From NCBI RefSeq assembly GCF_000737535.1, contig NZ_CP006269.1:1922001-1986000 (forward strand): 64,000 bases of DNA, in the 5' to 3' direction. Made by a program: the position numbers and the translations under genes. Positions 61,752-64,000 of the stretch are shown here, piece after piece (positions within the stretch are counted from its first letter, which is position 1; each line of letters begins with the position of its first letter). The stretch is from Synechococcus sp. KORDI-100 (GTDB lineage: Bacteria > Cyanobacteriota > Cyanobacteriia > PCC-6307 > Cyanobiaceae). The notes below the pieces were generated by a model. It made no database searches and was not told the origin of the DNA. It worked only from the letters and a program-made list of their open reading frames with translations.

Positions 61752-61876
61752 AGCCACACGTAATGCCGATCACCGGCTTGTGTATCGGCCCAAAAAAATC
61801 AAGTTGTATTTACACATGAGGGGCTGACCACTCGATCTTTAATGTCCATGCTTTGAGGGCGTCGCTCGGCTTGCCG

Positions 61877-62377
61877 ATGCTCGAGCTGCTTCCTCCCCTT
61901 AACGACAAGAATCTTCCCTGGCTCGACGTCATTCATCCGATCGTCGTTCACTTTGTGATCTCCATGGCGCTGATCACCGTTGTGTTCGACGTGATCGGAG
62001 TCGTCACGGGAAAGAAGAATCTGTTCGAGGTCAGCTTCTGGAATCTGATCGTTGCCACCGTGGCCATCTTCGTGGCCATCATCTTTGGCCAGGTCGAAGC
62101 CGGCCTCGCCAATCCCTATGGGGCTTCGAGGGACATCCTCAACTACCACAGCACCATCGGCTGGTCCCTGGCCGGCGTCCTGGCGTTGCTGACCGGATGG
62201 CGTTATGTCGCTCGTCAGAAAGATCCAACAATGCTGCCGAAAGGATTTCTGGCGGTCGACTTCGTGCTGGCAGGTCTTGTCTTCGCCCAGGTCTACCTGG
62301 GAGACAAGCTGGTGTGGGTGTACGGCTTGCACACCGTGCCCGTGGTTGATGCGATTCGAGAAGGGGTGCTGTCGTGA
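61877..62377 (+). CDS. DUF2231 membrane protein A
   Basis: From the Met at 61877 the product is 166 aa with four hydrophobic helices; HPIVVHFVISMALITVVFD is the first. DUF2231 proteins often have conserved His in helices, here in VIHPIVVHF and NYHSTIGW, and could bind heme. It forms the start of the oxidase operon and overlaps the next gene by 4 bp. Confidence 0.85.
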   Translation: MLELLPPLNDKNLPWLDVIHPIVVHFVISMALITVVFDVIGVVTGKKNLFEVSFWNLIVATVAIFVAIIFGQVEAGLANPYGASRDILNYHSTIGWSLAGVLALLTGWRYVARQKDPTMLPKGFLAVDFVLAGLVFAQVYLGDKLVWVYGLHTVPVVDAIREGVLS

Positions 62378-62994
62378 GCCTGATCGCCTCAATCAGCTCG
62401 CCGATCAACGAGATCAGCGACTCACTGGGTGCCAACGATCTTCCCTACGCCATCCCTCTGCACCCGAATCTGGTGCATCTGACGATTGGCCTATTCGCGA
62501 TCGGCATCGCCTTTGACTTCGCCGGCGCGTTCTACCCCCTCGAGAAGCGGGTCTTCCGCTTCCTCGCTCTGCCGGTCACCCGAAGCGGCTTCCACGATGT
62601 GGGCTGGTACAACCTGGTGGCCTGCAGCGGCATCACCTTCTTCACCGTGGCCGCCGGTTTCTATGAAATGTTGCTGGCGGTGCCGCTGCCCGGCATCCGC
62701 AGCATCATCGGCCAAACCGCCATCGACACCATGCTCTGGCACGCCATAGGCGGTGTTGCCATTCTGCTGGTGATCGTCGCCATGACCGTCTGGCGCGGCT
62801 ATCAACGGTTTGTCTGGCGGAAGGACCTGGGTCGCCAGGTCACCTGGCTCTATCTCCTGGCAGGAGCCTCGATGCTTGTGTTGATGGGGCTGCACGGCAG
62901 CCTCGGAGCCTGGCTGGCCAGCGATTTCGGCGTCCACATCACCGCTGACCAGCTTCTGGCTGCCGGTGCTGATCTGAATGAGGTGCTGCCATGA
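62374..62994 (+). CDS. DUF2231 membrane protein B
   Basis: From a GTG at 62374 the product is 206 aa: LHPNLVHLTIGLFAIGIAFD, TFFTVAAGFYEMLLAVPL, MLWHAIGGVAILLVIVAMT and others give four helices with several conserved His. It is related to the preceding gene and likely forms a heterodimer. It overlaps subunit II by 4 bp, so it is translationally coupled with the oxidase. Confidence 0.85.
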   Translation: MSLIASISSPINEISDSLGANDLPYAIPLHPNLVHLTIGLFAIGIAFDFAGAFYPLEKRVFRFLALPVTRSGFHDVGWYNLVACSGITFFTVAAGFYEMLLAVPLPGIRSIIGQTAIDTMLWHAIGGVAILLVIVAMTVWRGYQRFVWRKDLGRQVTWLYLLAGASMLVLMGLHGSLGAWLASDFGVHITADQLLAAGADLNEVLP

Positions 62995-63926
62995 CGACGA
63001 CTGCTCCCAAATCAGGACCGAACATCGGTGCCATTGTGATCATCGCGATGGCCGTGGCGATCAACCTGGTGATCGCCAAGTTGATGGCGACCTGGTCCTA
63101 CAGCTGGTTCCCACCTCAAGCCTCCACTGCTGCGCCCTTCGTTGACGATCTGTTCGCTCTGGAGACGGGAATCGGCTCCTTCATTTTCTTCGGCTGCACC
63201 GGCGTGATGGGCTGGGTGCTGTTGTTCAACCGCGCGGACAAATATGACGAAAGCGACGGTGCTCCGATCGAAGGCAACACCAAGCTCGAAATCATCTGGA
63301 CAATCATCCCCCTGGTGACGGTCTTTGTGATCGCCACTTACACGATGAACGTCAATATGAAGCTTCAGAACCTCGGTCCGAAGCACAAATACGTCATCGG
63401 CACCGATCCCACCGCGCTAGTGGAGAGCGATCCCATTGCCGACGTGGGACCGATTGATGTGATTGCACGGCAATGGAGCTGGGAATTCATCTACCCCAAT
63501 GGAGTCCGCAGCTCGGAACTGCATCTCCCCGTCGATCAGCGGGTCAACTTCCGGCTCACATCAGAAGACGTTCTGCACAGTTTCTTCGTACCGGCATTCC
63601 GGCTCAAGCAGGACATCATCCCCGGCAGCGTCATTTCCTACAGCCTCACGCCAACGAAAGAAGGGCGATTTCGGTTGCGGGACGCCATGTTCAGCGGCGC
63701 CTATTTCTCCCAGAACCAGACCGATGTGATCGTTGAATCCGATCAGGCCTACAGCGATTGGCTGAAGACAACCGCAAAGCGACCGCTGCAGCCCGGTCTC
63801 GATCCAGGCAGAGCGCTCTATGACCGCCGCATCGCGAGCGGTGACAAGGGATGGGCCACGGTTCCACCGGCACCAGCCCCGATGGTGAACGACCCCGGCG
63901 ATCCCTCCATCCCCCACGACGCCTGA
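62991..63926 (+). CDS. ctaC2: Heme-copper oxidase subunit II, CuA-less (ARTO-type)
   Basis: This 311-aa protein has two N-terminal helices (VIIAMAVAINLVIAKLMA and SFIFFGCTGVMGWVLLF) and a cupredoxin domain (QWSWEFIYPNG). His196 in DVLHSFFVP is kept, but the CuA loop (230-244) reads RDAMFSGAYFSQNQT: both Cys, the Glu, the second His and the Met are gone. It cannot bind CuA, as in the cyanobacterial alternative respiratory terminal oxidase. It is in an operon with two DUF2231 proteins and subunit I. Confidence 0.9.
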   Translation: MTTTAPKSGPNIGAIVIIAMAVAINLVIAKLMATWSYSWFPPQASTAAPFVDDLFALETGIGSFIFFGCTGVMGWVLLFNRADKYDESDGAPIEGNTKLEIIWTIIPLVTVFVIATYTMNVNMKLQNLGPKHKYVIGTDPTALVESDPIADVGPIDVIARQWSWEFIYPNGVRSSELHLPVDQRVNFRLTSEDVLHSFFVPAFRLKQDIIPGSVISYSLTPTKEGRFRLRDAMFSGAYFSQNQTDVIVESDQAYSDWLKTTAKRPLQPGLDPGRALYDRRIASGDKGWATVPPAPAPMVNDPGDPSIPHDA

Positions 63927-63929
63927 GCC

Positions 63930-64000
63930 ATGACCACCACCAACTACGACCCCCGCGTCCTCAAGGCGCCCCATCCGGTGCCCGGTGCGCCTGACAACTG
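63930..64000 (+). CDS. ctaD2: Heme-copper oxidase subunit I (partial)
   Basis: Only 23 codons are inside: MTTTNYDPRVLKAPHPVPGA. Its position 3 bp after subunit II and this N-terminus fit cytochrome oxidase subunit I, the catalytic heme/CuB subunit. The rest lies beyond the window. Identification depends on context. Confidence 0.7.
   Translation, partial: MTTTNYDPRVLKAPHPVPGAPDN

Follow-up and report, generated by a model that had tools for sequence, protein, structure and literature searches.

A pair of DUF2231 membrane proteins encoded with the CuA-less terminal oxidase of cyanobacteria is a candidate for its electron entrance

The window, a stretch of 64,000 nucleotides from Synechococcus sp. 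KORDI-100 (contig NZ_CP006269.1, positions 1,922,001 to 1,986,000), carries in its last ∼2.1 kb the first part of an oxidase operon. The genes concerned are given below in window positions, which are obtained from positions in the locus sequence L003 by adding 60499.

61877..62377, + strand: DUF2231 protein A, 166 aa from the ATG at 61877; four predicted helices; PF09990 match of 123.8 bits
62374..62994, + strand: DUF2231 protein B, 206 aa from a GTG; four predicted helices; PF09990 match of 125.1 bits
62991..63926, + strand: subunit II (CtaC2) of a heme-copper oxidase without CuA, 311 aa from an ATG; Pfam COX2 and COX2_TM
63930..64000, + strand: start of subunit I (CtaD2), which continues outside the window (L003 3431-5119)

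Both A and B score far above the DUF2231 cut-off of 26.4 bits and belong to this family; a longer form of A, starting with the TTG at 61853, is possible. As an earlier note on this DNA had claimed, the open reading frame coordinates (61877-63926) place 4-bp overlaps between A and B and between B and subunit II. The operon goes on with subunits I and III and a GMC oxidoreductase outside the window (L003 3431-7230), at spacings of 3-4 bp. A promoter scan gave nothing exceeding chance. The closest named relatives of B come from marine Synechococcus, including WH7803 (85% identity) and RCC307 (83%). The source genome, a single contig of 2.79 Mb, contains two COX1-type and two COX2-type genes above the Pfam cut-off. 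Its second oxidase, at C1:873784-876070, has the complete CuA motif CAELCGPYHGGM and a neighbourhood without a DUF2231 gene.

The last gene of the operon, downstream of subunit III at L003:5725-7230, codes for a GMC flavoenzyme; among NCBIfam models it matches the mycofactocin dehydrogenase MftG best (77 bits, under the cut-off of 387). A GMC gene lies inside the fetched stretch at 99 of 141 CuA-less loci and is missing from most of the loci read in family f7.

At the CuA ligand positions of the window's subunit II, only H196 is kept; D231, M233, S235, F239 and N242 replace Cys, Glu, Cys, His and Met, respectively. The earlier description of a subunit II that retains His196 and has lost the CuA cysteines, Glu, second His and Met is thus right for this sequence, but the loss of Met is not family-wide: among 141 CuA-less relatives, 58 have Met at this position and 83 have Asn. 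The other positions are nearly uniform in the same set, in which subunit II proteins of at least 240 aa were counted. The first His is kept and the first and second Cys positions are Asp and Ser in 141/141, while the position of the second His (which we take to be bovine 204) is Phe in 138 and Tyr in three. All six ligands are kept in 22/22 CuA-type sequences. Since Asp and Ser are fixed across the CuA-less relatives, the loss of the CuA ligands is not decay. The assignment to the alternative respiratory terminal oxidase (ARTO) is strongly supported: subunit II is COX2-related and without CuA ligands, it carries D231, S235 and F239, subunits I and III adjoin it, and the heme and CuB histidines of subunit I are conserved.

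We then consider where electrons could enter such an enzyme. In E. coli bo3, R71, D75, H98 and Q101 of CyoB are taken here to be the quinol site, and the low-spin heme, heme-CuB and K-channel residues are likewise assigned as we understand their roles in CyoB. The low-spin heme, heme-CuB and K-channel positions are conserved in subunit I at 37/37 ARTO loci. None of the four quinol-site residues is kept at any of these loci (0/37); the positions lie in two gap-free alignment stretches with a three-residue gap between them. ARTO is thereby ruled out as a plain bo3-type enzyme whose quinol site would lie in subunit I. In CuA oxidases R71, D75 and H98 are absent too (20/20), and Q101 is Gln in 12/20. 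A further change concerns CyoB His 411, presumably the Mg-site His of subunit I, whose position is Asn at 34/37 ARTO loci versus His at 20/20 CuA loci, as if the interface of subunits I and II had been remodelled along with the CuA site. Because the CuA ligands are lost and the bo3 quinol-site residues are absent, ARTO is, judged by residue conservation, an oxidase without either known entrance.

The earlier note had taken the two DUF2231 proteins as probable partners of the oxidase, a proposal that depended on whether their genes adjoin other ARTO loci. In a draw of 146 genomes across the phylum, 77 gave a match to subunit II. We read the neighbourhoods of all 42 places above 140 bits (41 CuA-less and one CuA-bearing) and of 19 lower-scoring places, all CuA-bearing; subunit II was classified by its CuA motif, and the CuA count covers the low-scoring places that were read. 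The A-B pair adjoins 37/41 CuA-less subunit II genes, the window locus included, versus 0/20 CuA-bearing ones (0/22 when two further CuA-bearing loci, read later, are counted). Among the four exceptions, three (L071-L073) come from a single genus; there subunit II is on its own and the A-B pair is present, still paired, elsewhere in the genome. The fourth (L066) counts against a strict association, being an extra ARTO copy without an adjoining pair in a genome that has other pairs.

DUF2231-B was found in 37/146 genomes of the phylum draw, of which 35 have a subunit II read as CuA-less and the remaining two (G036 and G105) have a cbb3-like oxidase. The 40 genomes with a subunit II match of which none was read as CuA-less gave no DUF2231-B. 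At the family level, separate searches with DUF2231-B (E of 1e-5 or better) and CuA-less subunit II (E of 1e-50 or better) matched the identical 65/151 genomes, and 86 matched neither. Both matches lie on the same contig and strand in all 65 genomes, the distance between them being -10 to 204 bp in 64 genomes and 647 bp in the remaining one. The family lists contain six other genomes from the genus of the window, two of which have neither DUF2231-B nor subunit II. Chance adjacency is excluded by these family searches. The family counts and the 37/41 versus 0/20 of the phylum draw were chosen independently of DUF2231; 80 plus 20 further loci were found via DUF2231-B, so that the overall adjacency of 137/141 leans towards the pair. 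We conclude that the partnership of pair and oxidase in one operon, as first suggested from the window, is strongly supported, and that the gene order is conserved at most other ARTO loci.

Genomes with two ARTO operons provide a second view of this partnership. Six of them were examined, G054 and several more lying outside this set. In five of the six, each of the four proteins A, B, subunit II and subunit I from the second operon resembles its counterparts in second operons of other genomes more than the copy in the first operon of its own genome; G095 is the exception, its two operons resembling each other more. Correlations of the distance matrices from 54 loci, uncorrected for shared species history, were 0.91 for A with subunit II, 0.88 for A with subunit I, 0.80 for B with subunit II and 0.76 for B with subunit I. 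On the other side, when the sequences were clustered into two groups, the second operons separated for subunit I only and not for A, B or subunit II. Taken at the level of sequence distances, pair and oxidase look as if they were inherited as one unit.

Several loci were unusual in other ways. At L121:7911-11164 an apparently broken ARTO operon has the A-B pair before a 105-aa fragment of subunit II, and at L267:6487-11967 subunits I and III of another apparently broken operon lie in more than one frame. ARTO subunit I at L264:1892-5825 is split by ∼2.2 kb containing a 474-aa tyrosine-recombinase-like ORF (Pfam match under the cut-off); comparable coxA3 excision elements are already described in heterocyst formers (PMC4874684). 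A picocyanobacterial A-B pair was also found on a contig (L206) assigned to a MAG of Bifidobacterium breve, which is probably a mislabelled or contaminated bin. Relatives in plasmid records were confined to cyanobacterial plasmids (nine records for B and nine for A of G105).

The same pair recurs with an oxidase of another type. In G036 and G105 the gene order is cbb3-like subunit I, a FixO/CcoO-like mono-heme subunit II, A, B and a Pyr_redox_2 flavoprotein that is NDH-2-like by inspection; no CuA-less subunit II was found in either genome. The best NCBIfam matches were ccoN (263 and 204 bits) for subunit I and CcoO-type for subunit II (96 and 84 bits), none of which reached the curated cut-off, and Pfam FixO was above its cut-off in both (89.5 and 81.9 bits). 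G036 (2.7 Mb) is probably S. elongatus, and the S. elongatus control genome matches both DUF2231 and FixO. FixO matches occurred in 20/386 genomes of the phylum, three of them in the window's class: G036, G105 and G038, the last of which counts against a fixed link, as it has the cbb3-like subunit II and the A-B pair was not found there. In three relatives outside the class, genes for a two-CxxCH protein, a Rieske-like protein and a cytochrome b-like protein (identities by inspection) stand at the place of the pair. By analogy with these operons, the A-B pair is situated where electron-donor modules sit.

Assembly genes are often co-encoded with oxidases. The A-B pair could accordingly be an assembly factor that delivers heme or copper or holds subunit II and is absent from the mature enzyme; its occurrence with two oxidase types would suit such a role, and its invariant histidines (see below) could carry copper. 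This explanation is weakened because CuA oxidases, which need the same heme and CuB, do without the pair at all 22 loci, and because DUF2231-B is absent from the genomes whose subunit II matches include none read as CuA-less. The pair tracks the missing entry site, and we regard an assembly role as unlikely. The reading that we prefer, at a little short of an even chance, is that DUF2231 A and B are dedicated membrane subunits of ARTO and form its electron entrance. The lack of bo3 quinol-site residues in subunit I and the presence of the pair with a cbb3-like oxidase make an electron-entry role more likely.

The residues conserved in A and B bear on what such an entrance might consist of. Across 145 sequences of each protein (at least 150 aa), H20, H25, H91, H152, D17, N56, E74 and Q138 of A and H30, H35, H123, H188, D48 and E98 of B are invariant; H174 of B is conserved in 140/145 and is Gln in five. 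The histidines in DUF2231 that the earlier note had pointed to are therefore conserved, with four invariant positions per protein. Comparison with hhalign shows A and B to be paralogues (probability 97.3, E 1.9e-11); the correspondence of A H91 and B H123 is drawn from their position in helix 3, and the hhalign alignment does not pair them. AlphaFold2 gave four long helices for each protein, with a mean pLDDT of 84.2 and a pTM of 0.78 for A and of 75.5 and 0.70 for B; the alignments behind these models had little depth (effective number 1.6 and 2.1) and the model of B is moderate. Lys and Arg are concentrated in loops 1-2 and 3-4 (means of 2.0-2.7) and rarer at the N-terminus (0.2-0.3), in loop 2-3 (0.6-0.8) and at the C-terminus (1.1-1.3). 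Because of this concentration, both termini and loop 2-3 of A and B should face outward. With residue depth taken from the helix limits, the conserved residues are predicted to lie in two layers near the outer face, a deeper one with A H25, H91 and Q138 and B H35, H123 and H174, and a shallower one with A D17, H20, E74 and H152 and B H30, E98 and H188.

A profile of B searched against the PDB for solved relatives gave nothing convincing (best E 0.15), and with Foldseek neither model had a match at E 0.001 or better. In the VIA-align comparisons, A gave Z 14.0 with a designed bundle (2.2 Å over 124 residues), Z ∼12-13 with COX subunit III and Z 11.7 with the designed di-heme protein 4D2 (1.8 Å over 105 residues), and the best value for B was Z 13.2, all within the background of helical bundles. 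Since the matches are generic four-helix bundles, no function was drawn from the fold. A literature search, which left most subscription titles outside and judged papers by their title and the start of the abstract, met no paper on the function of a DUF2231 protein. Solo DUF2231 genes occur in eight genomes (L122-L129), with no oxidase gene found beside them; in six of these sequences helix 1 contains GHPLHP or GHPIHP, and the second helix-1 His of the pair is, by inspection, absent.

We propose the following arrangement for the electron entrance. A and B, as homologous four-helix proteins, would probably associate with each other next to subunits I and II. The inner layer (A H25, H91 and Q138; B H35, H123 and H174) would hold a redox cofactor, most likely heme b, and the outer layer (A D17, H20, E74 and H152; B H30, E98 and H188) would be a site of plastoquinol oxidation on the outer face, which would be periplasmic or lumenal. 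From there, electrons could travel via the CuA-less subunit II to the low-spin heme of subunit I, a route that would replace both CuA and the subunit I quinol site of bo3 oxidases. Heme binding, quinol binding and the donor of ARTO are all inferred here. A passage of a review in which heme b of ARTO takes electrons directly from plastoquinol (PMC6616624) counts against a separate entry module.

Another reading is that the pair is a structural or quinol-channelling subunit, in which A and B carry no redox cofactor and, together with subunits I and II, shape a pocket for quinol, so that quinol reduces the low-spin heme directly as in bo3. A pocket of this kind would account for the conserved polar residues as well as for the missing bo3 site residues, and it fits the label of quinol oxidase in the same review (PMC6616624). 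However, the four or five conserved histidines in each protein, some of which are predicted to lie equally deep on separate helices, seem to be more than a channel needs, and we consider this reading quite improbable. Least probable of all is that the pair serves mainly as an outward ferric reductase arm passing electrons to Fe(III) outside the cell: the histidines on the predicted outer side, the poor iron reduction and uptake of Synechocystis ARTO mutants (Kranzler 2014, as told in PMC7676907 and PMC10119275) and the retention of the pair at two Prochlorococcus-labelled loci and one small-genome picocyanobacterial locus (L162, L166, L268) would agree with it, but the mutant in question lacks ctaD2 and ctaE2 and not the pair (PMC10119275), and the heterocyst oxidase is associated with O2 removal and ATP (PMC6616624).

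Returning to the electron entrance, a broader version of it, which we offer as doubtful, is that A-B is a hitherto unrecognised and exchangeable entry module of heme-copper oxidases. A membrane heme protein would then take electrons from quinol on the outside and pass them either to an oxidase without CuA and without the bo3 site or to a cbb3-like one, and its outward site would explain the ferric reductase phenotype that ARTO shows in iron-poor oceans. ARTO is found in many cyanobacteria and is used in heterocysts, and published work connects it with iron reduction in iron-poor seas. As a candidate answer to how electrons reach it, the comparison names two concrete proteins with invariant residues; if the proposal is true, part of the DUF2231 family would gain a function and heme-copper oxidases a new kind of electron-entry subunit.

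The operon itself is in print for Anabaena and, in the passages concerned, the electron-entry role of the pair is not. The almost complete linkage, the lack of both entry sites, the invariant histidines and the recurrence with a cbb3-like oxidase may be unpublished; in a literature search with most subscription titles outside, no statement that ARTO lacks both entrances was met.

Among known systems, cytochrome b561 and other four-helix heme b proteins of the Ni_hydr_CYTB kind resemble A and B as helical membrane proteins with histidines. Membership in Ni_hydr_CYTB was not supported, A scoring 14.3 bits (cut-off 30.1) and B having no listed match, and the b561 comparison of B (Z 10.5, 3.5 Å over 142 residues) is within chance for helical bundles. 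The cbb3-type genes of S. elongatus are alike in that the cbb3-like operons of G036 and G105, one of them probably from this species, include the A-B pair. They differ from ARTO in the type of oxidase, in a subunit II with heme c and in a B protein that has a C-terminal extension of ∼100 residues and, by inspection, Gln at the H174 position. S. elongatus PCC 7942 has cbb3 genes whose function in cyanobacteria is called unclear in part of a published account (PMC13208690). With cytochrome bo3 (CyoABCD), ARTO shares a subunit II without CuA and the heme and CuB histidines of CyoB. In contrast to ARTO, the E. coli operon has no DUF2231 gene, and ARTO subunit I is without R71, D75, H98 and Q101; the window's subunit I scores 655 bits with CtaD_CoxA versus 412 bits with CyoB.

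The closest likeness in gene order is to the ARTO of Anabaena, also called Cox3 or Qox, whose operon alr2729-alr2730-coxB3-coxA3-coxC3 has, as in the window, two genes followed by a CuA-less subunit II and subunits I and III (PMC6616624). Passages of this review describe ARTO as a bo3-type, three-subunit quinol oxidase, call further subunits not clear and give alr2729 and alr2730 no role (PMC6616624). Elsewhere, in the parts that bear on these genes, alr2729 and alr2730 are given as hypothetical or putative membrane proteins that change with the cox3 genes; the entries are alr2729-alr2732 in one expression study (PMC7065334) and, in another, alr2730 and alr2731 in one table and alr2729 and alr2730 in a second (PMC4390870). 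By their place in the operon, alr2729 and alr2730 are putative DUF2231 counterparts of A and B.
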